Shown piece by piece: positions 18,101 to 48,100 of a stretch of 64,000 nucleotides of DNA. Source of the stretch: Siphonodentalium dalli (Eukaryota > Mollusca > Scaphopoda > Gadilida > Siphonodentaliidae); contig CP136066.1 in NCBI GenBank assembly GCA_032622095.1, positions 111,747,319-111,811,318 on the forward strand. Reading direction: 5' to 3'. The notes under the pieces were generated by a model. The model did no database searches. It saw only the letters and a list, made by a program, of their open reading frames with translations, and had not been told where the DNA came from. A program made the translations under genes and the position numbers. Every line of letters starts with the position of its first letter. The stretch's first letter is position 1.

Positions 18101-21100
18101 GTGTAAATCCCAGGCTTATTCGAGAGCCAAAGGCATACCTCATTTCAAATGTATGAAAGTTATTTGCAAATAGTTTAGAACAGATTATCATCGCTTAAAT
18201 TATCAAACTGAAAATATCGATTGACACCTGAGTAGGTACTTATTTAACGCATGAGTGCTCTGATATAATCATGAATTAAGTATCTTGTTCAAGGGAACAA
18301 CACACATGATTCAGGTTTCGAATCACAGTCTGGGTACTACTGTTGCAGAAAGTGCTGGCCCAAAATTATAATTTGCCAAATAGAAATATTTTGTGCCAAA
18401 TTCTCTTATGGGAGAGTTATTCCTATGTATTGACAATTACGTATTGGATAGATCATCTCAACACGTGTCTGCAGAATTAAGAAGGGTGGTGTTAGTCATG
18501 ATTGGAAGTTATTACATGTAACTCTATTTGCGAGTGCACAGCACGAGTGAGTAGATTTAATATCTCCAAATCAAGACTGACGTCACCCTTCTTAATTCTG
18601 AAGGCACAAGTGAGATGATCTAGCCAATTTGGACGATTCATGATTATATGATTCACGATTATATGCAATTCATTATTTCTGACTCACTATATTCGCCCTA
18701 ATCGCAAAATGAACTCTTGAGTTTGGAAATTTTAACCCAGAATATTACCTCAGCCAACTTGATGAGGTATCGTTGGAAAGTTTCTTTTAATCATTTGGAG
18801 CGGTGTTTATGAAAAATGAGCAGACAACCGACATGCAAAAAGATAATAGAAGTGCAGAAGGATTGATTTTCGTTGGAAGGAAATGTTCAGATATGGTCAT
18901 TTGTTGAATTTATTATCTGAACATTTCTTTATGGAACAATGAGAATTTAGTAAAGAAAAGGTTAATACATTATTATAGTGCACTGTAATCTGAATTGGAT
19001 GATATCTCAGCATGTTCATATCTGACTTTTCTATAATTTTTATACATCTAGATATGCATACAAGGAGGCACTTGAGGTTGCTGAGAAACTGGACAAATTG
19101 AGAATAAAGGAAGAGAAAATTGTTGCTGAGGAGAAAAATATACATAAAACAGAGAAGGAATCATCACCTGAACCACCTGATCCAGATGGTAAGATATAAA
19201 TGTACATAAAATAGAGACGGAATCATCACCTGAACCACCTGATCCAAATGGTAAGATATAAATGTACATAAAATAGAGACGGAATCATCACCTGAACCAC
19301 CTGATCCAGATGGTAAGATATAAATGTACATAAAATAGAGACGGAATCATCACCTGAACCACCTGATCCAGATGGTAAGATATAAATGCACATAAAATAG
19401 AGACTGAGTCATCACCTGAACCACCTGCTCCAAATGGTAAGATATAAATGTACATAAAATAGAGACGGAATCATCACCTGAACCACCTGATCCAGATGGT
19501 AAGATATAAATGTACATAAAATAGAGACGGAATCATCACCTGAACCACCTGCTCCAAATGGTAAGATATAAATGTACATATAACAGAGAAGGAATCATCA
19601 CCTGAACCACCTGATCCAGATGGTAAGATATAAATGTACATAAAATAGAGACGGAATCATCACCTGAACCACCTGATCCAGATGGTAAGATATAAATGTA
19701 CATAAAATAGAGACGGAATCATCACCTGAACCACCTGATCCAAATGGTAAGATATAAACGTACATAAAATAGAGACGGAATCATCACCTGAACCACCTGA
19801 TCCAGATGGTAAGATATAAATGCACATAAAATAGAGACTGAGTCATCACCTGAACCACCTGCTCCAAATGGTAAGATATAAATGTACATAAAATAGAGAC
19901 GGAATCATCACCTGAACCACCTGATCCAGATGGTAAGATATAAATGCACATAAAATAGAGACTGAGTCATCACCTGAACCACCTGCTCCAAATGGTAAGA
20001 TATAAATGTACATAAAATAGAGACGGAATCATCACCTGAACCACCTGATCCAGATGGTAAGATATAAATGTACATAAAATAGAGACGGAATCATCACCTG
20101 AACCACCTGCTCCAAATGGTAAGATATAAATGTACATAAAATAGAGACAGAATCATCACCTGAACCACCTGCTCCAAATGGTAAGATATAAATGTACATA
20201 AAATAGAGACGGAATCATCACCTGAACCACCTGCTCCAAATGGTAAGATATAAATGTACATAAAACAGAGAAGGAATCATCACCTGAACCACCTGATCCA
20301 GATGGTAAGATATAAATGTACATAAAACAGAGAAGGAATCATCACCTGAACCACCTGCTCCAAATGGTAAGATATAAATGTACATAAAACAGAGAAGGAA
20401 TCATCACCTGAACCACCTGCTCCAAATGGTAAGATATAAATGTACATAAAATAGAGACGGAATCATCACCTGAACCACCTGCTCCAAATGGTAAGATATA
20501 AACGTACATAAAACAGAGACGGAATCATCACTTGTACCACCTGATCCAGATGGTAAGATATAAATGTACATAAAATAGAGACGGAATCATCACCTGAACC
20601 ACCTGCTCCAAATGGTAAGATATAAATGTACATAAAATAGAGACGGAATCATCACCTGAACCACCTGATCCAGATGGTAAGATATAAATGTACATAAAAT
20701 AGAGACAGAATCATCACCTGAACCACCTGCTCCAAATGGTAAGATATAAATGTACATAAAATAGAGACGGAATCATCACCTGAACCACCTGATCCAGATG
20801 GTAAGATATAAATGTACATAAAATAGAGACGGAATCATCACCTGAACCACCTGCTCCAAATGGTAAGATATAAATGTACATAAAATAGAGACAGAATCAT
20901 CACCTGAACCACCTGCTCCAAATGGTAAGATATAAATGTACATAAAATAGAGACGGAATCATCACCTGAACCACCTGCTCCAAATGGTAAGATATAAATG
21001 TACATAAAATAGAGACGGAATCATCACCTGAACCACCTGATCCAGATGGTAAGATATAAATGTAAATTTATAAATCAGAGAAGTAATCATCACCTGTACC

Positions 21101-24100
21101 ACCTGATCCAGATGGTAAGATATAAATGTACATAAATCAGAGAAGTAATCATCACTTGTACCACCTGATCCAGATGGTAAGATATAAATGTACATAAAAT
21201 AGAGACGGAATCATCACCTGAACCACCTGCTCCAAATGGTAAGATATAAATGTACATAAAATAGAGACGGAATCATCACCTGAACCACCTGATCCAGATG
21301 GTAAGATATAAATGTACATAAAATAGAGACAGAATCATCACCTGAACCACCTGCTCCAAATGGTAAGATATAAATGTACATAAAATAGAGACGGAATCAT
21401 CACCTGAACCACCTGATCCAGATGGTAAGATATAAATGTACATAAAATAGAGACGGAATCATCAACTGAGCCACCTGCTCCAAATGGTAAGATATAAATG
21501 TACATAAAACAGAGACAGAATCATCACCTGAACCACCTGCTCCAAATGGTAAGATATAAATGTACATAAAATAGAGACAGAATCATCACCTGAACCACCT
21601 GATCCAGATGGTAAGATATAAATGTACATAAAATAGAGACGGAATCATCAACTGAGCCACCTGCTCCAAATGGTAAGATATAAATGTACATAAAACAGAG
21701 ACAGAATCATCACCTGAACCACCTGCTCCAAATGGTAAGATATAAATGTACATAAAATAGAGACGGAATCATCACCTGAACCACCTGATCCAGATGGTAA
21801 GATATAAATGTACATACAATAGAGACGGAATCATCACCTGAACCACCTGATCCAGATGGTAAGATATAAATGTACATAAAATAGAGACAGAATCATCACC
21901 TGAACCACCTGCTCCAAATGGTAAGATATAAATGTACATAAAATAGAGACGGAATCATCACCTGAACCACCTGATCCAGATGGTAAGATATAAATGTACA
22001 TAAAACAGAGAAGGAATCATCACCTGAACCACCTGCTCCAAATGGTAAGATATAAATGTACATAAAATAGAGACGGAATCATCACCTGATCCAGATGGTA
22101 AGATATAAATGTACATAAAATAGAGACGGAATCATCACCTGAACCACCTGCTCCAAATGGTAAGATATAAATGTACATAAAATAGAGACGGAATCATCAC
22201 CTGAACCACCTGCTCCAAATGGTAAGATATAAATGTACATAAAATAGAGACGGAATCATCACCTGAACCACCTGATCCAGATGGTAAGATATAAATGTAC
22301 ATAAAATAGAGACGGAATCATCACCTGAACCACCTGATCCAGATGGTAAGATATAAATGTACATAAAATAGAGACGGAATCATCACCTGAACCACCTGAT
22401 CCAGATGGTAAGATATAAATGTACATAAAATAGAGACAGAATCATCACCTGAACCACCTGCTCCAAATGGTAAGATATAAATGTACATAAAATAGAGACG
22501 GAATCATCACCTGAACCACCTGATCCAGATGGTAAGATATAAATGTACATAAAACAGAGAAGGAATCATCACCTGAACCACCTGCTCCAAATGGTAAGAT
22601 ATAAATGTACATAAAATAGAGACGGAATCATCACCTGAACCACCTGCTCCAAATGGTAAGATATAAATGTACATAAAATAGAGACGGAATCATCACCTGA
22701 ACCACCTGCTCCAAATGGTAAGATATAAATGTACATAAAATAGAGACGGAATCATCACCTGAACCACCTGATCCAGATGGTAAGATATAAATGTACATAA
22801 AATAGAGAAGGAATCATCACCTGAACCACCTGCTCCAAATGGTAAGATATAAATGTACATAAAATAGAGACGGAATCATCACCTGAACCACCTGCTCCAA
22901 ATGGTAAGATATAAACGTACATAAAATAGAGACGGAATCATCACCTGAACCACCTGATCCAGATGGTAAGATATAAATGTACATAAAATAGAGACGGAAT
23001 CATCACCTGAACCACCTGCTCCAAATGGTAAGATATAAATGTACATAAAATAGAGACGGAATCATCACCTGAACCACCTGCTCCAAATGGTAAGATATAA
23101 ATGTACATAAAATAGAGACGGAATCATCACCTGAACCACCTGCTCCAAATGGTAAGATATAAATGTACATAAAATAGAGACGGAATCATCACCTGAACCA
23201 CCTGCTCCAAATGGTAAGATATAAATGTACATAAAATAGAGACGGAATCATCACCTGAACCACCTGCTCCAAATGGTAAGATATAAACGTACATAAAACA
23301 GAGACGGAATCATCACCTGAACCACCTGCTCCAAATGGTAAGATATAAATGTACATAAAATAGAGACGGAATCATCACCTGAACCACCTGCTCCAAATGG
23401 TAAGATATAAATGTACATAAAATAGAGACGGAATCATCACCTGAACCACCTGCTCCAAATGGTAAGATATAAATGTACATAAAATAGAGACGGAATCATC
23501 ACCTGAACCACCTGATCCAGATGGTAAGATATAAATGTACATAAAATAGAGACGGAATCATCACCTGAACCACCTGCTCCAAATGGTAAGATATAAATGT
23601 ACATAAAATAGAGACAGAATCATCACCTGAACCACCTGCTCCAAATGGTAAGATATAAATGTACATAAAATAGAGACGGAATCATCACCTGAACCACCTG
23701 CTCCAAATGGTAAGATATAAATGTACATAAAATAGAGACGGAATCATCACCTGAACCACCTGATCCAGATGGTAAGATATAAATGTACATAAAATAGAGA
23801 CGGAATCATCACCTGAACCACCTGCTCCAAATGGTAAGATATAAACGTACATAAAACAGAGAAGGAATCATCACCTGAACCACCTGATCCAGATGGTAAG
23901 ATATAAATGTACATAAAATAGAGACAGAATCATCACCTGAACCACCTGATCCAGATGGTAAGATATAAATGTACATAAAATAGAGAAGGAATCATCACCT
24001 GAACCACCTGCTCCAAATGGTAAGATATAAATGTACATAAAATAGAGAAGGAATCATCAACTGAGCCACCTGATCCAGATGGTAAGATATAAATGTACAT

Positions 24101-27100
24101 AAAATAGAGACTGAGTCATCACCTGAACCACCTGCTCCAAATGGTAAGATATAAATGTACATAAAATAGAGAAGGAATCATCACCTGAACCACCTGCTCC
24201 AAATGGTAAGATATAAATGTACATAAAATAGAGAAGGAATCATCACCTGAACCACCTGCTCCAAATGGTAAGATATAAATGTACATAAAATAGAGAAGTA
24301 ATCATCACCTGAACCACCTGATCCAGATGGTAAGATATAAATGTACATAAAATAGAGAAGTAATCATCACCTGAACCACCTGATCCAGATGGTAAGATAT
24401 AAATGTACATAAAATAGAGACGGAATCATCACCTGAACCACCTGCTCCAAATGGTAAGATATAAATGTACATAAAATAGAGAAGGAATCATCACCTGAAC
24501 CACCTGCTCCAAATGGTAAGATATAAATGTACATAAAATAGAGAAGGAATCATCACCTGAACCACCTGCTCCAAATGGTAAGATATAAATGTACATAAAA
24601 TAGAGAAGGAATCATCACCTGAACCACCTGCTCCAAATGGTAAGATATAAATGTACATAAAATAGAGAAGGAATCATCACCTGAACCACCTGCTCCAAAT
24701 GGTAAGATATAAATGTACATAAAATAGAGACGGAATCATCACCTGAACCACCTGATCCAAATGGTAAGATATAAATGTACATAAAATAGAGAAGGAATCA
24801 TCACCTGAACCACCTGCTCCAAATGGTAAGATATAAATGTACATATAACAGAGAAGGAATCATCACCTGAACCACCTGATCCAGATGGTAAGATATAAAT
24901 GTACATAAAATAGAGACGGAATCATCACCTGAACCACCTGCTCCAAATGGTAAGATATAAATGTACATAAAATAGAGAAGGAATCATCACCTGAACCACC
25001 TGCTCCAAATGGTAAGATATAAATGTACATATAACAGAGAAGGAATCATCACCTGAACCACCTGATCCAGATGGTAAGATATAAATGTACATAAAATAGA
25101 GACGGAATCATCACCTGAACCACCTGCTCCAAATGGTAAGATATAAATGTACATAAAATAGAGAAGGAATCATCACCTGAACCACCTGCTCCAAATGGTA
25201 AGATATAAATGTACATAAAATAGAGAAGGAATCATCACCTGAACCACCTGCTCCAAATGGTAAGATATAAATGTACATAAAATAGAGAAGGAATCATCAC
25301 CTGAACCACCTGCTCCAAATGGTAAGATATAAATGTACATAAAATAGAGACGGAATCATCACCTGAACCACCTGATCCAGATGGTAAGATATAAATGTAC
25401 ATAAAACAGAGACAGAATCATCACCTGAACCACCTGATCCAGATGGTAATATATAAATGTACATAAAATAGAGAAGGAATCATCACCTGAACCACCTGAT
25501 CCAGATGGTAAGATATAAATGTACATAAAATAGAGAAGGAATCATCACCTGAACCACCTGCTCCAAATGGTAAGATATAAATGTACATAAAATAGAGAAG
25601 GAATCATCACCTGAACCACCTGCTCCAAATGGTAAGATATAAATGTACATAAAACAGAGACGGAATCATCACCTGAACCACCTGATCCAGATGGTAAGAT
25701 ATAAACGTACATAAAACAGAGAAGGAATCATCACCTGAACCACCTGATCCAGATGGTAAGATATAAATGTACATAAAACAGAGAAGGAATCATCACCTGA
25801 ACCACCTGATCCAGATGGTAAGATATAAATGTACATAAAATAGAGACGGAATCATCACCTGAACCACCTGATCCAGATGGTAAGATATAAATGTACATAA
25901 AATAGAGAAGGAATCATCACCTGAACCACCTGCTCCAAATGGTAAGATATAAATGTACATAAAATAGAGAAGGAATCATCACCTGAACCACCTGCTCCAA
26001 ATGGTAAGATATAAATGTACATAAAATAGAGATGGAATCATCACCTGAACCACCTGATCCAGATGGTAAGATATAAATGTACATAAAATAGAGACGGAAT
26101 CATCACCTGAACCACCTGATCCAGATGGTAAGATATAAATGTACATAAAATAGAGAAGGAATCATCACCTGAACCACCTGCTCCAAATGGTAAGATATAA
26201 ATGTACATAAAATAGAGACGGAATCATCACCTGAACCACCTGATCCAGATGGTAAGATATAAATGTACATAAAATAGAGAAGGAATCATCACCTGAACCA
26301 CCTGCTCCAAATGGTAAGATATAAATGTACATAAAATAGAGACGGAATCATCACCTGAACCACCTGCTCCAAATGGTAAGATATAAATGTACATAAAATA
26401 GAGAAGGAATCATCACCTGAACCACCTGCTCCAAATGGTAAGATATAAATGTACATAAAATAGAGAAGGAATCATCACCTGAACCACCTGCTCCAAATGG
26501 TAAGATATAAATGTACATAAAATAGAGAAGGAATCATCACCTGAACCACCTGCTCCAAATGGTAAGATATAAATGTACATAAAATAGAGAAGGAATCATC
26601 ACCTGAACCACCTGCTCCAAATGGTAAGATATAAATGTACATAAAATAGAGAAGGAATCATCACCTGAACCACCTGCTCCAAATGGTAAGATATAAATGT
26701 ACATAAAATAGAGAAGGAATCATCACCTGTACCACCTGCTCCAAATGGTAAGATATAAATGTACATAAAATAGAGAAGGAATCATCACCTGAACCACCTG
26801 ATCCAGATGGTAAGATATAAATGTACATAAAATAGAGACAGAATCATCACCTGAACCACCTGATCCAGATGGTAAGATATAAATGTACATAAAATAGAGA
26901 CAGAATCATCACCTGAACCACCTGATCCAGATGGTAAGATATAAATGTACATAAAATAGAGACGGAATCATCACCTGAACCACCTGCTCCAAATGGTAAG
27001 ATATAAATGTACATAAAATAGAGAAGGAATCATCACCTGAACCACCTGCTCCAAATGGTAAGATATAAATGTACATAAAATAGAGAAGGAATCATCACCT

Positions 27101-30100
27101 GAACCACCTGATCCAGATGGTAAGATATAAATGTACATAAAATAGAGACAGAATCATCACCTGAACCACCTGATCCAGATGGTAAGATATAAATGTACAT
27201 AAAATAGAGACGGAATCATCACCTGAACCACCTGCTCCAAATGGTAAGATATAAATGTACATAAAATAGAGACGGAATCATCACCTGAACCACCTGATCC
27301 AGATGGTAAGATATAAATGTACATAAAATAGAGACGGAATCATCACCTGAACCACCTGCTCCAAATGGTAAGATATAAATGTACATAAAATAGAGAAGGA
27401 ATCATCACCTGAACCACCTGCTCCAAATGGTAAGATATAAATGTACATAAAATAGAGACAGAATCATCACCTGAACCACCTGATCCAGATGGTAAGATAT
27501 AAATGTACATAAAATAGAGACAGAATCATCACCTGAACCACCTGATCCAGATGGTAAGATATAAATGTACATAAAATAGAGACAGAATCATCACCTGAAC
27601 CACCTGATCCAGATGGTAAGATATAAATGTACATAAAATAGAGACAGAATCATCACCTGAACCACCTGATCCAGATGGTAAGATATAAATGTACATAAAA
27701 TAGAGACAGAATCATCACCTGAACCACCTGATCCAGATGGTAAGATATAAATGTACATAAAATAGAGACGGAATCATCACCTGAACCACCTGATCCAGAT
27801 GGTAAGATATAAATGTACATAAAATAGAGACGGAATCATCACCTGAACCACCTGATCCAGATGGTAAGATATAAACGTACATAAAATAGAGACAGAATCA
27901 TCACCTGAACCACCTGATCCAGATGGTAAGATATAAATGTACATAAAATAGAGACAGAATCATCACCTGAACCACCTGATCCAGATGGTAAGATATAAAT
28001 GTACATAAAATAGAGAAGGAATCATCACCTGAACCACCTGATCCAGATGGTAAGATATAAATGTACATAAAATAGAGAAGGAATCATCACCTGAACCACC
28101 TGATCCAGATGGTAAGATATAAACGTACATAAAATAGAGACGGAATCATCACCTGAACCACCTGATCCAGATGGTAAGATATAAATGTACATAAAACAGA
28201 GAAGGAATCATCACCTGAACCACCTGATCCAGATGGTAAGATATAAACGTACATAAAACAGAGAAGGAATCATCACCTGAACCACCTGATCCAGATGGTA
28301 AGATATAAATGTACATAAAATAGAGAAGGAATCATCACCTGAACCACCTGATCCAGATGGTAAGATATAAACGTACATAAAATAGAGACGGAATCATCAC
28401 CTGAACCACCTGATCCAGATGGTAAGATATAAATGTACATAAAACAGAGAAGGAATCATCACCTGAACCACCTGATCCAGATGGTAAGATATAAATGTAC
28501 ATAAAATAGAGACGGAATCATCACCTGAACCACCTGATCCAGATGGTAAGATATAAATGTACATAAAACAGAGAAGGAATCATCACCTGAACCACCTGAT
28601 CCAGATGGTAAGATATAAACGTACATAAAACAGAGAAGGAATCATCACCTGAACCACCTGATCCAGATGGTAAGATATAAATGTACATAAAACAGAGAAG
28701 GAATCATCACCTGAACCACCTGATCCAGATGGTAAGATATAAACGTACATAAAACAGAGAAGGAATCATCACCTGAACCACCTGATCCAGATGGTAAGAT
28801 ATAAATGTACATAAAACAGAGAAGGAATCATCACCTGAACCACCTGATCCAGATGGTAAGATATAAATGTACATAAAATAGAGACGGAATCATCACCTGA
28901 ACCACCTGATCCAGATGGTAAGATATAAATGTACATAAAACAGAGAAGGAATCATCACCTGAACCACCATATCCAGATGGTAAGATATAAATGTACATAA
29001 AATAGAGACGGAATCATCACCTGAACCACCTGCTCCAAATGGTAAGATATAAATGTACATAAAATAGAGACGGAATCATCACCTGAACCACCTGCTCCAA
29101 ATGGTAAGATATAAATGTACATAAAATAGAGACGGAATCATCACCTGAACCACCTGCTCCAAATGGTAAGATATAAATGTACATAAAACAGAGAAGGAAT
29201 CATCACCTGAACCACCTGATCCAGATGGTAAGATATAAACGTACATAAAACAGAGAAGGAATCATCACCTGAACCACCTGATCCAGATGGTAAGATATAA
29301 ACGTACATAAATCAGAGAAGGAATCATCACCTGAACCACCTGATCCAGATGGTAAGATATAAATGTACATAAAACAGAGAAGGAATCATCACCTGAACCA
29401 CCTGATCCAGATGGTAAGATATAAATGTACATAAAATAGAGAAGGAATCATCACCTGAACCACCATATCCAGATGGTAAGATATAAATGTACATAAAACA
29501 GAGAAGGAATCATCACCTGAACCACCTGATCCAGATGGTAAGATATAAACGTACATAAAACAGAGAAGGAATCATCACCTGAACCACCTGATCCAGATGG
29601 TAAGATATAAATGTACATAAAATATAGAAGGAATCATCACCTGAACCACCATATCCAGATGGTAAGATATAAATGTACATAAAACAGAGAAGGAATCATC
29701 ACCTGAACCACCATATCCAGATGGTAAGATATAAACGTACATAAAATAGAGAAGGAATCATCACCTGAACCACCTGATCCAGATGGTAAGATATAAATGT
29801 ACATAAAATAGAGAAGGAATCATCACCTGAACCACCTGATCCAGATGGTAAGATATAAATGTACATAAAATAGAGAAGGAATCATCACCTGAACCACCTG
29901 ATCCAGATGGTAAGATATAAATGTACATAAAATAGAGACGGAATCATCACCTGAACCACCTGATCCAGATGGTAAGATATAAACGTACATAAAACAGAGA
30001 AGGAATCATCACCTGAACCACCATATCCAGATGGTAAGATATAAACGTACATAAAATAGAGAAGGAATCATCACCTGAACCACCTGATCCAGATGGTAAG

Positions 30101-33100
30101 ATATAAATGTACATAAAATAGAGAAGGAATCATCACCTGAACCACCTGATCCAGATGGTAAGATATAAATGTACATAAAATAGAGAAGGAATCATCACCT
30201 GAACCACCTGATCCAGATGGTAAGATATAAATGTACATAAAATAGAGACGGAATCATCACCTGAACCACCTGATCCAGATGGTAAGATATAAACGTACAT
30301 AAAACAGAGAAGGAATCATCACCTGAACCACCTGATCCAGATGGTAAGATATAAACGTACATAAAACAGAGAAGGAATCATCACCTGAACCACCATATCC
30401 AGATGGTAAGATATAAACGTACATAAAACAGAGAAGGAATCATCACCTGAACCACCTGATCCAGATGGTAAGATATAAATGTAAATAAAACAGAGACGGA
30501 ATCATCACCTGAACCACCTGATCCAGATGGTAAGATATAAACGTACATAAAATAGAGACAGAATCATCACCTGAACCACCTGATCCAGATGGTAAGATAT
30601 AAATGTACATAAAACAGAGAAGGAATCATCACCTGAACCACCTGATCCAGATGGTAAGATATAAATGTAAATAAAACAGAGACGGAATCATCACCTGAAC
30701 CACCTGATCCAGATGGTAAGATATAAACGTACATAAAATAGAGACAGAATCATCACCTGAACCACCTGATCCAGATGGTAAGATATAAACGTACATAAAA
30801 TAGAGACGGAATCATCACCTGAACCACCATATCCAAATGGTAAGATATAAACGTACATAAAATAGAGAAGGAATCATCACCTGAACCACCTGATCCAGAT
30901 GGTAAGATATAAATGTACATAAAACAGAGAAGGAATCATCACCTGAACCACCTGATCCAGATGGTAAGATATAAATGTACATAAAACAGAGAAGGAATCA
31001 TCACCTGAACCACCTGATCCAGATGGTAAGATATAAATGTACATAAAACAGAGAAGGAATCATCACCTGAACCACCTGATCCAGATGGTAAGATATAAAT
31101 GTACATAAAACAGAGAAGGAATCATCACCTGAACCACCTGATCCAGATGGTAAGATATAAACGTACATAAAATAGAGACGGAATCATCACCTGAACCACC
31201 TGATCCAGATGGTAAGATATAAACGTACATAAAATAGAGACAGAATCATCACCTGAACCACCTGATCCAGATGGTAAGATATAAATGTACATAAAACAGA
31301 GAAGGAATCATCACCTGAACCACCTGATCCAGATGGTAAGATATAAATGTACATAAAACAGAGAAGGAATCATCACCTGAACCACCTGATCCAGATGGTA
31401 AGATATAAACGTACATAAAACAGAGAAGGAATCATCACCTGAACCACCTGATCCAGATGGTAAGATATAAATGTACATAAAATAGAGACGGAATCATCAC
31501 CTGAACCACCTGATCCAGATGGTAAGATATAAACGTACATAAAACAGAGAAGGAATCATCACCTGAACCACCTGATCCAGATGGTAAGATATAAACGTAC
31601 ATAAAATAGAGACGGAATCATCACCTGAACCACCTGATCCAGATGGTAAGATATAAATGTACATAAAATAGAGACGGAATCATCACCTGAACCACCTGAT
31701 CCAGATGGTAAGATATAAACGTACATAAAATAGAGACGGAATCATCACCTGAACCACCTGATCCAGATGGTAAGATATAAATGTACATAAAACAGAGAAG
31801 GAATCATCACCTGAACCACCTGATCCAGATGGTAAGATATAAACGTACATAAAATAGAGACGGAATCATCACCTGAACCACCTGATCCAGATGGTAAGAT
31901 ATAAATGTACATAAAATAGAGACGGAATCATCACCTGAACCACCTGATCCAGATGGTAAGATATAAACGTACATAAAATAGAGACGGAATCATCACCTGA
32001 ACCACCTGATCCAGATGGTAAGATATAAATGTACATAAAACAGAGAAGGAATCATCACCTGAACCACCTGATCCAGATGGTAAGATATAAACGTACATAA
32101 AATAGAGACGGAATCATCACCTGAACCACCATATCCAGATGGTAAGATATAAATGTACATAAAATAGAGACGGAATCATCACCTGAACCACCTGATCCAG
32201 ATGGTAAGATATAAACGTACATAAAATAGAGACGGAATCATCACCTGAACCACCTGATCCAGATGGTAAGATATAAATGTACATAAAATAGAGACGGAAT
32301 CATCACCTGAACCACCTGATCCAGATGGTAAGATATAAATGTACATAAAACAGAGAAGGAATCATCACCTGAACCACCTGATCCAGATGGTAAGATATAA
32401 ATGTACATAAAACAGAGAAGGAATCATCACCTGAACCACCTGATCCAGATGGTAAGATATAAATGTACATAAAACAGAGAAGGAATCATCACCTGAACCA
32501 CCATATCCAGATGGTAAGATATAAACGTACATAAAATAGAGACGGAATCATCACCTGAACCACCTGCTCCAGATGGTAAGATATAAATGTACATAAAACA
32601 GAGAAGGAATCATCACCTGAACCACCTGATCCAGATGGTAAGATATAAATGTACATAAAACAGAGAAGGAATCATCACCTGAACCACCATATCCAGATGG
32701 TAAGATATAAATGTACATAAAATAGAGACGGAATCATCACCTGAACCACCTGATCCAGATGGTAAGATATAAATGTACATAAAACAGAGAAGGAATCATC
32801 ACCTGAACCACCTGATCCAGATGGTAAGATATAAATGTACATAAAACAGAGAAGGAATCATCACCTGAACCACCTGATCCAGATGGTAAGATATAAATGT
32901 ACATAAAACAGAGAAGGAATCATCACCTGAACCACCATATCCAGATGGTAAGATATAAATGTACATAAAATAGAGAAGGAATCATCACCTGAACCACCTG
33001 ATCCAGATGGTAAGATATAAATGTACATAAAACAGAGAAGGAATCATCACCTGAACCACCTGATCCAGATGGTAAGATATAAATGTACATAAAATAGAGA

Positions 33101-36100
33101 CGGAATCATCACCTGAACCACCTGATCCAGATGGTAAGATATAAATGTACATAAAACAGAGAAGGAATCATCACCTGAACCACCTGATCCAGATGGTAAG
33201 ATATAAACGTACATAAAACAGAGAAGGAATCATCACCTGAACCACCTGATCCAGATGGTAAGATATAAATGTACATAAAATAGAGACGGAATCATCACCT
33301 GAACCACCTGATCCAGATGGTAAGATATAAATGTACATAAAATAGAGAAGGAATCATCACCTGAACCACCTGATCCAGATGGTAAGATATAAATGTACAT
33401 AAAACAGAGAAGGAATCATCACCTGAACCACCATATCCAGATGGTAAGATATAAATGTACATAAAATAGAGACGGAATCATCACCTGAACCACCTGATCC
33501 AGATGGTAAGATATAAATGTACATAAAACAGAGAAGGAATCATCACCTGAACCACCATATCCAGATGGTAAGATATAAATGTACATAAAACAGAGAAGGA
33601 ATCATCACCTGAACCACCATATCCAGATGGTAAGATATAAATGTACATAAAACAGAGAAGGAATCATCACCTGAACCACCTGATCCAGATGGTAAGATAT
33701 AAATGTACATAAAATAGAGACGGAATCATCACCTGAACCACCTGATCCAGATGGTAAGATATAAATGTACATAAAACAGAGAAGGAATCATCACCTGAAC
33801 CACCATATCCAGATGGTAAGATATAAATGTACATAAAACAGAGAAGGAATCATCACCTGAACCACCTGATCCAGATGGTAAGATATAAATGTACATAAAA
33901 TAGAGACGGAATCATCACCTGAACCACCTGATCCAGATGGTAAGATATAAATGTACATAAAATAGAGACGGAATCATCACCTGAACCACCTGATCCAGAT
34001 GGTAAGATATAAACGTACATAAAACAGAGAAGGAATCATCACCTGAACCACCTGATCCAGATGGTAAGATATAAACGTACATAAAATAGAGACGGAATCA
34101 TCACCTGAACCACCTGATCCAGATGGTAAGATATAAATGTACATAAAATAAAGAAGGAATCATCACCTGAACCACCATATCCAGATGGTAAGATATAAAT
34201 GTACATAAAACAGAGAAGGAATCATCACCTGAACCACCTGATCCAGATGGTAAGATATAAATGTACATAAAATAGAGAAGGAATCATCACCTGAACCACC
34301 TGATCCAGATGGTAAGATATAAATGAACATAAAACAGAGAAGGAATCATCACCTGAACCACCTGATCCAGATGGTAAGATATAAATGTACATAAAACAGA
34401 GAAGGAATCATCACCTGAACCACCATATCCAGATGGTAAGATATAAATGTACATAAAACAGAGAAGGAATCATCACCTGAACCACCTGATCCAGATGGTA
34501 AGATATAAATGTACATAAAATAGAGACGGAATCATCACCTGAACCACCTGATCCAGATGGTAAGATATAAATGTACATAAAATAGAGACGGAATCATCAC
34601 CTGAACCACCTGATCCAGATGGTAAGATATAAATGTACATAAAATAGAGACGGAATCATCACCTGAACCACCTGATCCAGATGGTAAGATATAAACGTAC
34701 ATAAAACAGAGAAGGAATCATCACCTGAACCACCTGATCCAGATGGTAAGATATAAATGTACATAAAATAGAGAAGGAATCATCACCTGAACCACCATAT
34801 CCAGATGGTAAGATATAAATGTACATAAAACAGAGAAGGAATCATCACCTGAACCACCTGATCCAGATGGTAAGATATAAATGTACATAAAACAGAGAAG
34901 GAATCATCACCTGAACCACCATATCCAGATGGTAAGATATAAATGTACATAAAACAGAGAAGGAATCATCACCTGAACCACCTGATCCAGATGGTAAGAT
35001 ATAAATGTACATAAAATAGAGACGGAATCATCACCTGAACCACCTGATCCAGATGGTAAGATATAAATGTACATAAAATAGAGACGGAATCATCACCTGA
35101 ACCACCTGATCCAGATGGTAAGATATAAATGTACATAAAATAGAGAAGGAATCATCACCTGAACCACCTGATCCAGATGGTAAGATATAAATGTACATAA
35201 AACAGAGAAGGAATCATCACCTGAACCACCTGATCCAGATGGTAAGATATAAACGTACATAAAACAGAGAAGGAATCATCACCTGAACCACCTGATCCAG
35301 ATGGTAAGATATAAACGTACATAAAATAGAGAAGGAATCATCACCTGAACCACCTGATCCAGATGGTAAGATATAAATGTACATAAAATAGAGAAGGAAT
35401 CATCACCTGAACCACCTGATCCAGATGGTAAGATATAAATGTACATAAAACAGAGAAGGAATCATCACCTGAACCACCATATCCAGATGGTAAGATATAA
35501 ATGTACATAAAATAGAGAAGGAATCATCACCTGAACCACCTGATCCAGATGGTAAGATATAAATGTACATAAAACAGAGAAGGAATCATCACCTGAACCA
35601 CCTGATCCAGATGGTAAGATATAAATGTACATAAAATAGAGAAGGAATCATCACCTGAACCACCTGATCCAGATGGTAAGATATAAATGTACATAAAACA
35701 GAGAAGGAATCATCACCTGAACCACCTGATCCAGATGGTAAGATATAAACGTACATAAAACAGAGAAGGAATCATCACCTGAACCACCTGATCCAGATGG
35801 TAAGATATAAATGTACATAAAATAGAGAAGGAATCATCACCTGAACCACCTGATCCAGATGGTAAGATATAAATGTACATAAAATAGAGAAGGAATCATC
35901 ACCTGAACCACCTGATCCAGATGGTAAGATATAAATGTACATAAAACAGAGAAGGAATCATCACCTGAACCACCATATCCAGATGGTAAGATATAAATGT
36001 ACATAAAATAGAGAAGGAATCATCACCTGAACCACCTGATCCAGATGGTAAGATATAAACGTACATAAAACAGAGACGGAATCATCACCTGAACCACCTG

Positions 36101-39100
36101 ATCCAGATAGTAAGATATAAATGTACATAAAACAGAGAAGGAATCATCACCTGAACCACCTGATCCAGATGGTAAGATATAAACGTACATAAAACAGAGA
36201 CGGAATCATCACCTGAACCACCTGCTCCAAATGGTAAGATATAAATGTACATAAAACAGAGACGGAATCATCACCTGAACCACCTGATCCAGATAGTAAG
36301 ATATAAATGTACATAAAACAGAGAAGGAATCATCACCTGAACCACCTGATCCAGATGGTAAGATATAAACGTACATAAAACAGAGACGGAATCATCACCT
36401 GAACCACCTGCTCCAAATGGTAAGATATAAATGTACATAAAACAGAGACGGAATCATCACCTGAACCACCTGATCCAGATAGTAAGATATAAATGTACAT
36501 AAAACAGAGAAGGAATCATCACCTGAACCACCTGATCCAAATGGTAAGATATAAACGTACATAAAACAGAGACGGAATCATCACCTGAACCACCTGATCC
36601 AGATGGTAAGATATAAATGTACATAAAATAGAGAAGGAATCATCACCTGAACCACCTGATCCAGATGGTAAGATATAAACGTACATAAAACAGAGACGGA
36701 ATCATCACCTGAACCACCTGATCCAGATAGTAAGATATAAATGTACATAAAACAGAGAAGGAATCATCACCTGAACCACCTGATCCAGATGGTAAGATAT
36801 AAATGTACATAAAATAGAGACGGAATCATCACCTGAACCACCTGATCCAGATGGTAAGATATAAATGTACATAAAACAGAGAAGTAATCATCACCTGAAC
36901 CACCTGATCCAGATGGTAAGATATAAATGTACATAAAACAGAGAAGGAATCATCACCTGAACCACCTGATCCAAATGGTAAGATATAAATGTACATAAAA
37001 CAGAGAAGGAATCATCACCTGAACCACCTGATCCAGATGGTAAGATATAAATGTACATAAAACAGAGAAGTAATCATCACCTGAACCACCATATCCAGAT
37101 GGTAAGATATAAATGTACATAAAACAGAGATGGAATCATCACCTGAACCACCTGATCCAGATGGTAAGATATAAATGTACATAAAATAGAGACGGAATCA
37201 TCACCTGAACCACCTGATCCAGATGGTAAGATATAAATGTACATAAAACAGAGAAGGAATCATCACCTGAACCACCTGATCCAAATGGTAAGATATAAAT
37301 GTACATAAAACAGAGACGGAATCATCACCTGAACCACCTGCTCCAAATGGTAAGATATAAACGTACATAAAATAGAGACGGAATCATCACCTGAACCACC
37401 TGATCCAGATGGTAAGATATAAATGTACATAAAACAGAGAAGGAATCATCACCTGAACCACCTGATCCAGATAGTAAGATATAAATGTACATAAAACAGA
37501 GAAGGAATCATCACCTGAATCACCTGATCCAGATGGTAAGATATAAATGTACATAAAACAGAGAAGTAATCATCACCTGAACCACCTGATCCAGATGGTA
37601 AGATATAAATGTACATAAAACAGAGAAGTAATCATCACCTGAACCACCTGATCCAGATGGTAAGATATAAATGTACATAAAACAGAGAAGGAATCATCAC
37701 CTGAACCACCTGATCCAGATGGTAAGATATAAATGTACATAAAACAGAGAAGGAATCATCACCTGAATCACCTGATCCAGATGGTAAGATATAAATGTAC
37801 ATAAAACAGAGAAGGAATCATCACCTGAATCACCTGATCCAGATGGTAAGATATAAATGTACATAAAACAGAGAAGGAATCATCACCTGAATCACCTGAT
37901 CCAGATGGTAAGATATAAATGTACATAAAACAGAGAAGGAATCATCACCTGAACCACCTGATCCAGATGGTAAGATATAAATGTACATAAAACAGAGAAG
38001 GAATCATCACCTGAACCACCTGATCCAGATGGTAAGATATAAATGTACATAAAACAGAGAAGGAATCATCACCTGAATCACCTGATCCAGATAGTAAGAT
38101 ATAAATGTACATAAAACAGAGAAGGAATCATCACCTGAACCACCTGATCCAGATGGTAAGATATAAACGTACATAAAACAGAGAAGGAATCATCACCTGA
38201 ACCACCTGATCCAGATGGTAAGATATAAACGTACATAAAACAGAGAAGGAATCATCACCTGAACCACCTGATCCAGATGGTAAGATATAAATGTACATAA
38301 AACAGAGAAGGAATCATCACCTGAACCACCTGATCCAAATGGTAAGATATAAACGTACATAAAACAGAGAAGGAATCATCACCTGAACCACCTGATCCAG
38401 ATGGTAAGATATAAATGTACATAAAACAGAGAAGGAATCATCACCTGAACCACCTGATCCAAATGGTAAGATATAAACGTACATAAAACAGAGACGGAAT
38501 CATCACCTGAACCACCTGATCCAGATGGTAAGATATAAACGTACATAAAACAGAGACGGAATCATCACCTGAACCACCTGATCCAGATGGTAAGATATAA
38601 ACGTACATAAAACAGAGACGGAATCATCACCTGAACCACCTGATCCAGATGGTAAGATATAAACGTACATAAAACAGAGAAGGAATCATCACCTGAACCA
38701 CCTGATCCAGATGGTAAGATATAAACGTACATAAAACAGAGACGGAATCATCACCTGAACCACCTGATCCAGATGGTAAGATATAAACGTACATAAAACA
38801 GAGACGGAATCATCACCTGAACCACCTGATCCAGATGGTAAGATATAAACGTACATAAAACAGAGAAGGAATCATCACCTGAACCACCTGATCCAGATGG
38901 TAAGATATAAACGTACATAAAACAGAGAAGGAATCATCACCTGAACCACCTGATCCAGATGGTAAGATATAAACGTACATAAAACAGAGACGGAATCATC
39001 ACCTGAACCACCTGATCCAGATGGTAAGATATAAACGTACATAAAACAGAGAAGGAATCATCACCTGAACCACCTGATCCAGATGGTAAGATATAAATGT

Positions 39101-42100
39101 ACATAAAACAGAGAAGGAATCATCACCTGAACCACCTGATCCAAATGGTAAGATATAAACGTACATAAAACAGAGAAGGAATCATCACCTGAACCACCTG
39201 ATCCAGATGGTAAGATATAAATGTACATAAAACAGAGAAGGAATCATCACCTGAACCACCTGATCCAAATGGTAAGATATAAACGTACATAAAACAGAGA
39301 CGGAATCATCACCTGAACCACCTGATCCAGATGGTAAGATATAAACGTACATAAAACAGAGAAGGAATCATCACCTGAACCACCTGATCCAGATGGTAAG
39401 ATATAAACGTACATAAAACAGAGACGGAATCATCACCTGAACCACCTGATCCAGATGGTAAGATATAAACGTACATAAAACAGAGAAGGAATCATCACCT
39501 GAACCACCTGATCCAGATGGTAAGATATAAATGTACATAAAACAGAGAAGGAATCATCACCTGAACCACCTGATCCAAATGGTAAGATATAAACGTACAT
39601 AAAACAGAGAAGGAATCATCACCTGAACCACCTGATCCAGATGGTAAGATATAAATGTACATAAAACAGAGAAGGAATCATCACCTGAACCACCTGATCC
39701 AAATGGTAAGATATAAACGTACATAAAACAGAGACGGAATCATCACCTGAATCACCTGATCCAAATGGTAAGATATAAATGTACATAAAATAGAGAAGGA
39801 ATCATCACCTGAACCACCTGATCCAGATGGTAAGATATAAATGTACATAAAACAGAGACGGAATCATCACCTGAACCACCTGATCCAGATGGTAAGATAT
39901 AAATGTACATAAATCAGAGAAGTAATCATCACCTGAACCACCTGCTCCAAATGGTAAGATTTAAATGTACATAAATCAGAGAAGTAATCATCACCTGAAC
40001 CACCTGATCCAGATGGTAAGATATAAACGTACATAAAACAGAGAAGGAATCATCACCTGAATCACCTGATCCAGATGGTAAGATATAAACGTACATAAAA
40101 CAGAGAAGGAATCATCACCTGAACCACCTGATCCAGATGGTAAGATATAAATGTACATAAAACAGAGAAGGAATCATCACCTGAACCACCTGATCCAGAT
40201 GGTAAGATATAAACGTACATAAAACAGAGAAGGAATCATCACCTGAATCACCTGATCCAAATGGTAAGATATAAACGTACATAAAACAGAGAAGGAATCA
40301 TCACCTGAACCACCTGATCCAGATGGTAAGATATAAATGTACATAAAACAGAGAAGGAATCATCACCTGAACCACCTGATCCAAATGGTAAGATATAAAC
40401 GTACATAAAACAGAGACGGAATCATCACCTGAACCACCTGATCCAGATGGTAAGATATAAACGTACATAAAACAGAGAAGGAATCATCACCTGAACCACC
40501 TGATCCAGATGGTAAGATATAAATGTACATAAAACAGAGAAGGAATCATCACCTGAACCACCATATCCAGATGGTAAGATATAAATGTACATAAAACAGA
40601 GAAGGAATCATCACCTGAACCACCTGATCCAGATGGTAAGATATAAATGTACATAAAACAGAGAAGGAATCATCACCTGAACCACCATATCCAGATGGTA
40701 AGATATAAATGTACATAAAACAGAGAAGGAATCATCACCTGAACCACCTGATCCAGATGGTAAGATATAAATGTACATAAAACAGAGAAGGAATCATCAC
40801 CTGAACCACCTGATCCAGATGGTAAGATATAAATGTACATAAAACAGAGAAGGAATCATCACCTGAACCACCTGATCCAGATGGTAAGATATAAATGTAC
40901 ATAAAACAGAGAAGGAATCATCACCTGAACCACCATATCCAGATGGTAAGATATAAATGTACATAAAACAGAGAAGGAATCATCACCTGAACCACCTGAT
41001 CCAGATGGTAAGATATAAATGTACATAAAACAGAGAAGGAATCATCACCTGAACCACCTGATCCAGATGGTAAGATATAAATGTACATAAAACAGAGAAG
41101 GAATCATCACCTGAACCACCTGATCCAGATGGTAAGATATAAATGTACATAAAACAGAGAAGGAATCATCACCTGAACCACCTGATCCAGATGGTAAGAT
41201 ATAAATGTACATAAAACAGAGAAGGAATCATCACCTGAACCACCTGATCCAGATGGTAAGATATAAATGTACATAAAACAGAGAAGGAATCATCACCTGA
41301 ACCACCTGATCCAGATGGTAAGATATAAATGTACATAAAACAGAGAAGGAATCATCACCTGAACCACCTGATCCAAATGGTAAGATATAAACGTACATAA
41401 AACAGAGACGGAATCATCACCTGAACCACCTGATCCAGATGGTAAGATATAAACGTACATAAAACAGAGAAGGAATCATCACCTGAACCACCTGATCCAG
41501 ATGGTAAGATATAAATGTACATAAAACAGAGAAGGAATCATCACCTGAACCACCATATCCAGATGGTAAGATATAAATGTACATAAAACAGAGAAGGAAT
41601 CATCACCTGAACCACCTGATCCAGATGGTAAGATATAAATGTACATAAAACAGAGAAGGAATCATCACCTGAACCACCATATCCAGATGGTAAGATATAA
41701 ATGTACATAAAACAGAGAAGGAATCATCACCTGAACCACCTGATCCAGATGGTAAGATATAAATGTACATAAAACAGAGAAGGAATCATCACCTGAACCA
41801 CCTGATCCAGATGGTAAGATATAAATGTACATAAAACAGAGAAGGAATCATCACCTGAACCACCTGATCCAGATGGTAAGATATAAATGTACATAAAACA
41901 GAGAAGGAATCATCACCTGAACCACCTGATCCAGATGGTAAGATATAAATGTACATAAAACAGAGAAGGAATCATCACCTGAACCACCTGATCCAGATGG
42001 TAAGATATAAATGTACATAAAACAGAGAAGGAATCATCACCTGAACCACCTGATCCAAATGGTAAGATATAAACGTACATAAAACAGAGACGGAATCATC

Positions 42101-45100
42101 ACCTGAACCACCTGATCCAGATGGTAAGATATAAACGTACATAAAACAGAGAAGGAATCATCACCTGAACCACCTGATCCAGATGGTAAGATATAAATGT
42201 ACATAAAACAGAGAAGGAATCATCACCTGAACCACCTGCTCCAAATGGTAAGATATAAATGTACATAAAATAGAGAAGGAATCATCACCTGAACCACCTG
42301 ATCCAGATGGTAAGATATAAATGTACATAAAACAGAGAAGGAATCATCACCTGAACCACCTGATCCAGATGGTAAGATATAAATGTACATAAAACAGAGA
42401 AGGAATCATCACCTGAACCACCTGATCCAGATGGTAAGATATAAACGTACATAAAACAGAGAAGGAATCATCACCTGAACCACCTGATCCAGATGGTAAG
42501 ATATAAACGTACATAAAATAGAGAAGGAATCATCACCTGAACCACCTGATCCAGATGGTAAGATATAAATGTACATAAAACAGAGAAGGAATCATCACCT
42601 GAACCACCTGATCCAAATGGTAAGATATAAACGTACATAAAACAGAGACGGAATCATCACCTGAACCACCTGATCCAGATGGTAAGATATAAACGTACAT
42701 AAAACAGAGAAGGAATCATCACCTGAACCACCTGATCCAGATGGTAAGATATAAATGTACATAAAACAGAGAAGGAATCATCACCTGAACCACCTGATCC
42801 AGATGGTAAGATATAAATGTACATAAAACAGAGAAGGAATCATCACCTGAACCACCTGATCCAAATGGTAAGATATAAATGTACATAAAACAGAGAAGGA
42901 ATCATCACCTGAACCACCTGATCCAAATGGTAAGATATAAATGTACATAAAACAGAGAAGTAATCATCACCTGAACCACCTGCTCCAAATGGTAAGATAT
43001 AAATGTACATAAAACAGAGAAGGAATCATCACCTGAACCACCTGCTCCAAATGGTAAGATATAAATGTACATAAAACAGAGAAGGAATCATCACCTGAAC
43101 CACCTGATCCAAATGGTAAGATATAAATGTACATAAAACAGAGAAGTAATCATCACCTGAACCACCTGATCCAGATGGTAAGATATAAACGTACATAAAA
43201 CAGAGAAGGAATCATCACCTGAATCACCTGATCCAGATGGTAAGATATAAATGTACATAAAACAGAGAAGGAATCATCACCTGAATCACCTGATCCAGAT
43301 GGTAAGATATAAATGTACATAAAACAGAGAAGGAATCATCACCTGAATCACCTGATCCAGATGGTAAGATATAAATGTACATAAAACAGAGAAGGAATCA
43401 TCACCTGAACCACCTGATCCAGATAGTAAGATATAAATGTACATAAAACAGAGACGGAATCATCACCTGAACCACCTGATCCAGATGGTAAGATATAAAT
43501 GTACATAAAACAGAGAAGGAATCATCACCTGAACCACCTGATCCAGATGGTAAGATATAAATGTACATAAAACAGAGACGGAATCATCACCTGAACCACC
43601 TGATCCAGATGGTAAGATATAAATGTACATAAAACAGAGAAGGAATCATCACCTGAACCACCTGATCCAGATGGTAAGATATAAATGTACATAAAACAGA
43701 GAAGGAATCATCACCTGAACCACCTGATCCAGATGGTAAGATATAAACGTACATAAAACAGAGAAGGAATCATCACCTGAACCACCTGATCCAGATGGTA
43801 AGATATAAATGTACATAAAACAGAGAAGGAATCATCACCTGAACCACCTGATCCAGATGGTAAGATATAAATGTACATAAAACAGAGAAGGAATCATCAC
43901 CTGAACCACCTGATCCAGATGGTAAGATATAAACGTACATAAAACAGAGAAGGAATCATCACCTGAACCACCTGATCCAGATAGTAAGATATAAATGTAC
44001 ATAAAACAGAGAAGGAATCATCACCTGAACCACCTGATCCAGATGGTAAGATATAAACGTACATAAAACAGAGAAGGAATCATCACCTGAACCACCTGAT
44101 CCAGATGGTAAGATATAAACGTACATAAAACAGAGAAGGAATCATCACCTGAACCACCTGATCCAGATGGTAAGATATAAACGTACATAAAATAGAGACA
44201 GAATCATCACCTGAACCACCTGATCCAGATGGTAAGATATAAACGTACATAAAACAGAGAAGGAATCATCACCTGAACCACCTGATCCAGATGGTAAGAT
44301 ATAAACGTACATAAAATAGAGACGGAATCATCACCTGAACCACCTGATCCAGATGGTAAGATATAAATGTACATAAAATAGAGACAGAATCATCACCTGA
44401 ACCACATGATCCAGATGGTAAGATATAAATGTAAATTTATAAATCAGAGAAGTAATCATCACCTGAACCACCTGATCCAGATGGTAAGATATAAATGTTC
44501 ATAAAATAGAGACAGAATCATCACCTGAACCACCTGATCCAGATGGTAAGATATAAACGTACATAAAATAGAGACAGAATCATCACCTGAACCACCTGAT
44601 CCAGATGGTAAGATATAAATGTACATAAAACAGAGACAGAATCATCACCTGAACCACCTGATCCAGATGGTAAGATATAAATGTACATAAAACAGAGACA
44701 GAATCATCACCTGAACCACCTGATCCAGATGGTAAGATATAAACGTACATAAAATAGAGACGGAATCATCACCTGAACCACCTGATCCAGATGGTAAGAT
44801 ATAAATGTACATAAAATAGAGACAGAATCATCACCTGAACCACCTGATCCAGATGGTAAGATATAAACGTACATAAAATAGAGACGGAATCATCACCTGA
44901 ACCACCTGATCCAGATGGTAAGATATAAATGTACATAAAACAGAGACAGAATCATCACCTGAACCACCTGATCCAGATGGTAAGATATAAATGTACATAA
45001 AATAGAGACGGAATCATCACCTGAACCACCTGATCCAGATGGTAAGATATAAATGTACATAAAATAGAGACAGAATCATCACCTGAACCACCTGATCCAG

Positions 45101-48100
45101 ATGGTAAGATATAAATGTACATAAAACAGAGACAGAATCATCACCTGAACCACCTGATCCAGATGGTAAGATATAAATGTACATAAAATAGAGACGGAAT
45201 CATCACCTGAACCACCTGATCCAGATGGTAAGATATAAATGTACATAAAACAGAGACAGAATCATCACCTGAACCACCTGATCCAGATGGTAAGATATAA
45301 ATGTACATAAAATAGAGACGGAATCATCACCTGAACCACCTGATCCAGATGGTAAGATATAAACGTACATAAAATAGAGACGGAATCATCACCTGAACCA
45401 CCATATCCAGATGGTAAGATATAAATGTACATAAAATAGAGACGGAATCATCACCTGAACCACCTGATCCAGATGGTAAGATATAAATGTACATAAAATA
45501 GAGACGGAATCATCACCTGAACCACCTGATCCAGATGGTAAGATATAAACGTACATAAAATAGAGACAGAATCATCACCTGAACCACCTGATCCAGATGG
45601 TAAGATATAAATGTACATAAAATAGAGAAGGAATCATCACCTGAACCACCTGATCCAGATGGTAAGATATAAACGTACATAAAACAGAGAAGGAATCATC
45701 ACCTGAACCACCTGATCCAGATGGTAAGATATAAACGTACATAAAACAGAGAAGGAATCATCACCTGAACCACCTGATCCAAATGGTAAGATATAAACGT
45801 ACATAAATCAGAGAAGGAATCATCACCTGAACCACCTGATCTAGATGGTAAGATATAAACGTACATAAAACAGAGAAGGAATCATCACCTGAACCACCAT
45901 ATCCAAATGGTAAGATATAAACGTACATAAAACAGAGAAGGAATCATCACCTGAACCACCTGATCCAGATGGTAAGATATAAACGTACATAAAACAGAGA
46001 AGGAATCATCACCTGAACCACCTGATCCAGATGGTAAGATATAAACGTACATAAAATAGAGACTGAGTCATCAACTGAACCACCTGATCCAAATGGTAAG
46101 ATATAAACGTACATAAATCAGAGAAGTAATCATCACCTGTACCACCTGATCCAGATGGTAAGATATAAATGTACATAAAACAGAGAAGGAATCATCAACT
46201 GAACCACCTGATCCAGATGGTAAGATATAAACGTACATAAAATAGAGACGGAATCATCACCTGAACCACCTGATCCAGATGGTAAGATATAAACGTACAT
46301 AAAATAGAGAAGGAATCATCAACTGAGCCACCTGATCCAGATGGTAAGATATAAATGTACATAAAATAGAGACTGAGTCATCACCTGAACCACCATATCC
46401 AAATGGTAAGATATAAATGTACATAAAATAGAGACGGAATCATCACCTGATCCAGATGGTAAGATATAAATGTACATAAAACAGAGAAGGAATCATCAAC
46501 TGAACCACCTGATCCAGATGGTAAGATATAAATGTAAATTTATAAATCAGAGAAGTAATCATCACCTGTACCACCATATCCAGATGGTAAGATATAAACG
46601 TACATAAAATAGAGAAGGAATCATCAACTGAGCCACCTGATCCAGATGGTAAGATATAAATGTACATAAAATAGAGACTGAGTCATCACCTGAACCACCA
46701 TATCCAAATGGTAAGATATAAACGTACATAAAACAGAGAAGTAATCATCACTTGAGCCACCTGCTCCAAATGTTAAACTTATATTGACTATCAATTTATT
46801 TAAAGATATATTATGGACTTATTCGGGTGCGTTAAACTGTCAAGTCAGTATTCGGGCAGTATGCCAACTGGATGAATGAAACATTCTACTACATCGCTGA
46901 AAAAATCTGCAGGAAATTGACCGTACCACTCCATAGAAAACATCGTCTGAACTATGCTCAAATGTAAATATTTACTTCTCGATTCGGGACGCAACAATCG
47001 GCGATAAAATAACGAAAATTATTTCGCCGTCGAGAGTCACTGAATTTAATTCATATATAATAATGGTGGTGTGTGTTATCAAGTTTGGATGTAAGATTTG
47101 TAAAAATAACTACTTTGAGCAAGATTATCCTCCATTTCAATTTGATCACCCAGCCGGAGTGTTTCACATCACTTTAATAAATCGAGGAAGTGAATTTGAT
47201 CATTATGTTATCATTATGGCATTATTGTCTCAAAAGTTCCCTGTATATCAATGTGATTTATCAGGGCAATAGTTCATCTAATTTGCAGAGTAATTTGGTG
47301 ACAACAGTAACCCAAATAGTCTTCAATACTATGAGGTACATGTATACTCTATCTAAATACTCAATTTTTTAGATTAAATAATATATCTAGTACCAACATA
47401 AATTTTTGATGCTGCAAGCTACAGCTTCAGGGATGAACACTAAACATAGAGCGACACAGTGTCATCAAATGGTTAACATGTTATTACACTAAACATAGAG
47501 CGACACAGTGGCATCAAATGGTTAACATGTTATTACATTAAACATAGAGCGACACAGTGTCATCAAATGGTTAACATCCTATTAAACATAGAGCGACACA
47601 GTGGCATCAAATGGTTAACATGTTATTACACTAAACATAGAGCGACACAGTGGCATCAAATGGTTAACATGTTATTAAACATAGAGCGACACAGTGGCAT
47701 CAAATGGTTAACATGTTATTACACTAAACATAGAGCGACACAGTGGCATCAAATGGTTAACATGTTATTACATTAAACATAGAGCGACACAGTGGCATCA
47801 AATGGTTAACATGTTATTACACTAAACATAGAGCGACACAGTGTCATCAAATGGTTAACATCTTATTAAACATAGAGCGACACAGTGGCATCAAATGGTT
47901 AACATGTTATTACACTAAACATAGAGCGACACAGTGGCATCAAATGGTTAAAATCTTATTACACTAAACATAGAGCGACACAGTGGCATCAAATGGTTAA
48001 CATGTTATTACACTAAACATAGAGCGACACAGTGGCATCAAATGGTTAACATGTTATTACACTAAACATAGAGCGACACAGTGGCATCAAATGGTTAACA

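Follow-up and report, generated by a model that had tools for sequence, protein, structure and literature searches.

A giant tandem array of the exon 4-intron 4 boundary in the USP8 gene of the scaphopod Siphonodentalium dalli, most likely a tolerated mirage minisatellite

The present analysis concerns a 64,000-base stretch of the Siphonodentalium dalli genome (assembly GCA_032622095.1, contig CP136066.1, positions 111,747,319 to 111,811,318; hereafter the window, which contains no N), whose + strand carries the 5′ part of the USP8 gene. It revealed that 89% of the 30.9-kb intron 4 of this gene consists of a tandem array of about 445 copies of a 62-base-pair (bp) unit, each of which repeats the end of exon 4, its 5′ splice site and the beginning of the intron. 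Minisatellite-like tandem duplications of exon-intron boundaries are known as mirages and were described in amphioxus, in Adh3 and later in globin genes (PMC3087553). The USP8 array is in our opinion quite probably a giant mirage minisatellite that is tolerated, being neutral or mildly costly, in a gene that is spliced from the first donor.

Tandem Repeats Finder (TRF) delimits the array at 19136-46776 of the + strand (period 62, 445.9 copies, 96% matches, score 48594), in close agreement with the initial annotation of the window, which had placed about 445 copies at 19141-46773. Starting at the exon donor and moving along the array, we counted 445 donors between 19189 and 46711, i.e., one authentic site and 444 decoys; the annotation had announced about 440 working-looking decoys. 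The unit is made of about 47 bases of exon end and about 15 bases of intron start, joined at ATG/GTAAGA, and is 62 bp long in 440 of the 445 cases (66 bp in three and 53 bp in two). All 445 donors keep the GT, 444 have the hexamer GTAAGA and one has GTAATA; over positions -3 to +6, 436 read ATGGTAAGA, eight ATAGTAAGA and one ATGGTAATA. Overall, the array includes 73 distinct unit sequences and ends with a degraded copy (46711-46776, + strand), its most diverged part. Exon 4 (19052-19188, + strand, 137 nucleotides) contributes its last 47-55 bases or so as the exon part of the unit. Its last 47 bases before the first donor are exactly the array consensus and are found unchanged in 111 of the 445 units, which bears out the earlier proposal that the repeat arose from an exon-intron boundary.

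The assignment of the gene to USP8, also made by the annotation, was corroborated by profile and structure searches. The protein encoded by exons 1-7 matches the USP8_dimer domain (PF08969, E 1.1e-24) and the rhodanese domain (PF00581, E 1.4e-4), as well as the USP8 structures 1whb, 2gwf, 8y9a and 2a9u, among which 1whb and 2gwf are rhodanese matches. Pieces of a UCH domain, which amount to a partial domain only, lie on the same strand at C6:111815394 and 111822018, about 4 and 11 kb past the window. The predicted architecture is thus that of USP8: a dimerisation domain, a rhodanese domain and a C-terminal UCH domain seen in pieces. When the seven-exon protein was searched against the 2.23-Gb genome, with 125 of 247 candidates scored, it gave seven matches, all inside the window, and no second copy of USP8 was found at that sensitivity. 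Once joined, exons 1-8 provide 527 codons without any stop, with AG preceding exons 2-8 and GT following each exon, and the gene is apparently intact. Since joining 19188 to 50078 (acceptor 50077/50078) keeps the reading frame, the first 5′ splice site of the array (GTAAGA, 19189-19194, + strand) is very probably the authentic donor of exon 4. The resulting intron of 30,889 bases is the intron of about 31 kb that had been predicted.

In the readable part of the genome, some stretches of which read N, the unit was found at this single locus. An exact 34-base pattern of the unit has 272 matches genome-wide (all of them forward, none reverse) and a 39-base pattern allowing up to three mismatches has 427, and all of these 272 and 427 matches lie in the window; the reversed-motif controls gave none in both cases. 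Within the window, ATGGTAAGA is absent from both strands outside the array. A satellite inserted beside the exon was therefore rejected, as no other locus was found at the sensitivity searched and as the exon part of the unit belongs to the coding sequence, being the in-frame end of exon 4. The reverse order, in which the array would have come first and the exon would later have extended into it, is disfavoured by the base composition of the unit: because its exon part has 43% GC and its intron part 20%, the sequence favours an order in which the exon came first.

The array displays several features of mirages. Its unit combines a real exon end, the junction and the adjoining intron, the donor being supported by the open frame predicted through exons 1-8; the splice signals are kept (GT in 445/445), as they are in many, not all, of the amphioxus copies (PMC3087553). 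The unit is of minisatellite length and the array evolves in concert, units separated by two positions being identical in 89 of 443 pairs compared to 6.7% expected at random. In mirages the cluster boundaries escape homogenisation; in USP8 the two edges differ in this respect, the right edge being the part that has diverged most (within-bin divergences of 3.93 and 7.33, compared to 1.31-2.94 in the other bins) and the exon-side edge, with 2.81, not standing out. As far as the amphioxus account goes, the two systems are also alike in affecting several genes of one genome and in their unit length (10-72 bp in Adh3). In amphioxus, BflGb6 repeats the acceptor side, whereas BflGb9 has one duplicate of the 3′ exon boundary, i.e., the side repeated in USP8 (PMC3087553). 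The same account reports mirage clusters that are unstable in length, with somatic instability at Adh3, and reverse transcription PCR data from amphioxus which, together with the Adh3 data, suggest that regular splicing is not disturbed (PMC3087553). Two other systems are related. Human IFI6 (6-16, G1P3) carries a minisatellite with multiple splice donors (Turri et al. 1995), two downstream repeat donors of which are used for isoforms (PMC4526556); as in USP8, where the donors are predicted, repeat units supply additional 5′ splice sites where an exon ends. Introns may also be gained when exon sequence containing AGGT is duplicated in tandem (PMC4974935), a process that likewise creates extra splice sites, but in USP8 the duplication spans an existing boundary and shows no new intron. 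The annotation knew of no case with hundreds of copies of a splice site next to the real one. As a class, this is already known from the amphioxus mirages (PMC3087553) and IFI6 (PMC4526556), but neither, as described there, comes near 440 copies, so that the claim stands for the hundreds. The account in PMC3087553 presents no array near the size of that of USP8, the original Adh mirage paper lying outside this comparison. What the USP8 case contributes is its size, together with the other genes affected in the same genome.

The array would have begun with a short tandem duplication across the 5′ splice site of exon 4, taking in the last 47 bases or so of the exon and some 15 bases at the start of intron 4, which repeated unequal exchange or slippage would then have enlarged to about 445 copies within the intron. 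It would have persisted because the coding part of the unit specifies a linker without any domain and because each added copy falls in the intron; indeed, the repeat-unit bases of exon 4 encode the linker between the USP8_dimer and rhodanese domains. The units have been homogenised locally. Their mean pairwise identity is 95.4% (20,000 random pairs among the 440 full-length units), the longest copied block of unit order reaches nine units compared to at most five in 50 shuffles, and the longest exact repeat within the array is 658 bp. Among the 62 columns of the full-length units, 36 are invariant, and the donor columns show no special conservation (two of nine variable compared to 24 of the 53 others, Fisher p = 0.28).

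The choice of the donor was examined from the sequence. The U1 genes start with ATACTTACCTG in the six loci read (out of at least 42 U1 matches above the cut-off in the genome), and for the exon 4 donor the energy of pairing to U1 is -8.0 kcal/mol, the fifth value among the 11 window donors measured. Given their identity over positions -3 to +6 in 436 of the 445 sites, the decoys are predicted to equal the first site in strength. If the donors are equal, position and exon definition must decide the choice. Shifting to any of donors 2 to 5 introduces the same in-frame stop four codons on (DGKI-stop). With any donor further on, the first unit would still be retained, and with it the stop, so that a transcript spliced from a downstream donor should go to nonsense-mediated decay. 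Because exon definition would pair the acceptor of exon 4 with the nearest donor, giving the 137-nucleotide exon, the first copy would be the one spliced, and the gene would be functional only with that choice. Since decoy use would insert a stop, the decoys are better regarded as noise or as a mild cost than as a device.

Several points weigh against this reading. In predicted folds the first donor does not stand out (0.48 unpaired compared to a mean of 0.53, with 97 of the 445 donors lower), so that its proposed choice does not appear obvious from the sequence. By analogy, IFI6 suggests that decoys of such a kind can be used, but its downstream donors, as reported, make isoforms, whereas those from the USP8 decoys would be truncated. 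The IFI6 array is much shorter than that of USP8. The size of the USP8 array also departs from the amphioxus mirages, since BflGb6 has six and three units in two haplotypes (PMC3087553) compared to 445 copies and 27.6 kb in USP8, and a different balance of forces is possible in an array that is so much longer. Furthermore, the mean number of differences from the exon copy is 3.38 for units 1-45 but only 0.69 for units 361-405, i.e., the units close to the exon are less exon-like than those around 41-44 kb. The sequence therefore argues against growth by simple outward copying from the exon, and the expansion is patchy rather than a steady march. Finally, columns 1-12 of the unit are somewhat less variable than the others (two of 12 compared to 24 of 50, p = 0.058), which may leave room for a weak constraint.

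Boundary arrays recur at other genes of this repeat-rich genome, where tandem repeats with a period of at least 10 cover 17,148 of the 180,000 bases sampled. The genome was scanned for pairs of donor motifs and 19 loci were read. The first ten were chosen by eye from the 100 places heading each of the lists of three donor-pair scans and are thus a biased pick, six of them being exon-like by eye (L025, L027, L028, L029, L030 and L032). Nine more, together with USP47 (L027), make up 10 of the 11 distinct arrays among the 100 places listed in a fourth scan, which lie on one chromosome, the array at C1:231.98 Mb being left out; five of these 10 are exon-like by eye (L027, L039, L040, L042 and L043). 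Four arrays covering an exon end and its donor could be assigned: (i) the C-terminal region of USP47 (L027; 41-bp unit, 11 copies; PF19718, E 2e-10), for which the structure search gave no trusted match (best E 1), (ii) a LEM-domain exon (L029; 49 bp, seven copies; PF03020, E 6.8e-9), whose best-ranked structure hits belong to pentatricopeptide repeats, without any one stretch that passes, LAP2 scoring E 0.0013, (iii) NAA35/Mak10 (L032; 39 bp, about 16 copies; 7rb3, E 6.1e-5, with a structure-search query whose last residue was read from the first intron codon), and (iv) a plexin-like PSI exon (L043; 46 bp, about four copies; PF24479, E 6.8e-8). The exon-like loci L025, L028, L030, L039, L040 and L042 gave no trusted Pfam or structure match. 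A fixed rule written after the loci had been read (a pyrimidine-rich acceptor and an open frame of 60-300 nucleotides) was passed by seven of 18 array loci, whereas among the 34 GGTAAG sites of 18 sampled stretches of 10 kb each it was passed by three (p = 0.022); the 18 array loci, which do not include L031, whose stretch lacks the upstream end of the array, are not independent, L037 and L038 being near copies. L028, L029 and L040 failed the rule. Counted on both strands, donor-motif pairs compared to pairs of the reversed motif numbered 2523 and 2246, 3640 and 3619, 714 and 2010, and 1950 and 610 in the four scans. In the scan with 714 pairs, the window holds 426 of the 551 forward pairs of the genome, and the places listed in the scan with 1950 pairs come mostly from two large arrays. 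The outcome being mixed across the four scans, we claim no general enrichment of donor motifs over the reversed motif in the arrays of this genome; recurrence is claimed, without a rate. Similar boundary arrays at other genes point to a general mutational process. The 39-bp unit of the NAA35 boundary forms an array again at C3:244884331-244885628 on the - strand, about 264 kb from L032 and on the opposite strand, which could be either a second copy or a duplicate of the end of the gene in inverted orientation. Another array, from C1:231979802 to at least 232046664 (- strand), repeats a 26-bp unit, GTAAGTCTCGTACATACAACTAACAG, that resembles a minimal intron with a donor, CTAAC and AG.

The annotation had also raised the idea of a regulatory or U1-binding role, for which we found no support in the sequence since the donor columns are no more conserved than the rest; its own alternative, a tolerated accident, fits best. 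One form of such a role would be a rheostat by poison splicing, in which a share of the transcripts uses decoys, gains a stop and is degraded, the length of the array setting the output of USP8. The match between the decoys and the first site, the single stop shared by donors 2 to 5 and the precedent of human IFI6, where downstream repeat donors are indeed used (PMC4526556), would suit it, but the lack of special conservation of the donor columns, the presence of similar arrays in unrelated genes and the undisturbed splicing suggested in amphioxus (PMC3087553) do not, and we regard it as unlikely. A broader version, in which mirages would still be arising throughout the genome in this lineage and stochastic decoy use would make the length of the array a heritable, fast-mutating dial on USP8 output, seems a little more doubtful still. 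The array could alternatively be a U1-binding device, whose dense sites would either prevent premature polyadenylation within a long intron (telescripting) or titrate U1. TATAAA is a weak variant of the polyadenylation signal; it occurs 447 times in 19189-46776, adjoining the donors, and the array offers 445 sites complementary to a U1 whose 5′ end is canonical in the six loci read. However, 89% of the intron to be protected is the array itself, AATAAA occurs only three times in it and ATTAAA never, and its donor columns are not specially conserved. Nascent transcripts are few and U1 is very abundant, which makes titration implausible. Telescripting would operate via U1 at donor-like sites in introns (PMC10404622 and others), an action for which the USP8 array provides no support, and we hold such a device to be very unlikely.

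Two further explanations concern the reality and the reading of the array. A 27.6-kb array of 62-bp units that are 95% identical exceeds many long reads, and the true array could be far shorter or longer than the assembled one; one amphioxus mirage in the draft genome appears to be misassembled (PMC3087553). However, since the longest exact repeat is 658 bp, a false duplication at the kilobase scale is not seen, the variants are clustered rather than random and the window contains no N, so that we give very little credit to an assembly artefact, slightly less than to a U1 device. Finally, an acceptor-like site (AAACAG or AAATAG) and the donor bound an interval of 36 nucleotides in each unit, which might be an in-frame mini-exon whose phase would be compatible with the junctions of exons 4 and 5, some copies being spliced as a EKESSPEPPDPD linker. 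This is hardly credible given that the pyrimidine share upstream of the AAACAG of the unit is 0.38, compared to 0.50-0.88 in the nine real USP8 acceptors measured, and that the exon part varies in 22 columns, which are spread over all codon positions (9, 8 and 5).

The other USP8 exons of the window, all on the + strand, are as follows. Exon 1 (15065-15191), coding from the ATG at 15088 and followed by the donor GTTAGT, lies within the PF08969 match, and exons 2 (16618-16762) and 3 (18002-18087) were placed by their acceptor, donor and frame and by the protein search with PF08969/PF00581. Exon 5 (50078-50252) starts the rhodanese domain, as indicated by its acceptor, donor and frame and by 1whb and 2gwf; exons 6 (53000-53162) and 7 (54382-54523) combine genome and structure matches with an acceptor, a donor and an open frame, and exon 8 (55699-56329) has an acceptor, a donor and an open frame, without any family match of its own. 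A likely GC-AG intron follows exon 10 at 60034/60035, where the exon end AAAAAG precedes GCAAGT. Profile matches to Rad60-SLD and DUF6446 were not trusted, as no single stretch passes alone. Near its acceptor, intron 4 includes a second array, of a 49-bp unit (47437-49954, + strand, 52 copies according to TRF), all 51 genome places of which (up to three mismatches) lie inside the window, none being found elsewhere in the genome. Upstream of USP8, a 164-bp repeat (11079-13639) resembles by eye a 164-bp repeat of another chromosome (L019:4013-4406), and both probably belong to a dispersed tandem family. An open frame of 421 amino acids on the - strand (1909-3174) looks by eye like part of the protein of a non-LTR (long terminal repeat) retrotransposon.

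Taken as a whole, the array is clear in the assembly, its length being that of one assembly, and it is most likely tolerated. It extends the class of mirages, described in amphioxus genes (PMC3087553), far beyond their size there. With hundreds of 5′ splice sites of equal predicted strength behind the authentic one, it constitutes a natural experiment on the choice of a donor by the spliceosome, and the smaller versions found in USP47, NAA35, the LEM-domain gene and the plexin-like gene (about four to 16 copies) would make the effect of copy number readable across genes.

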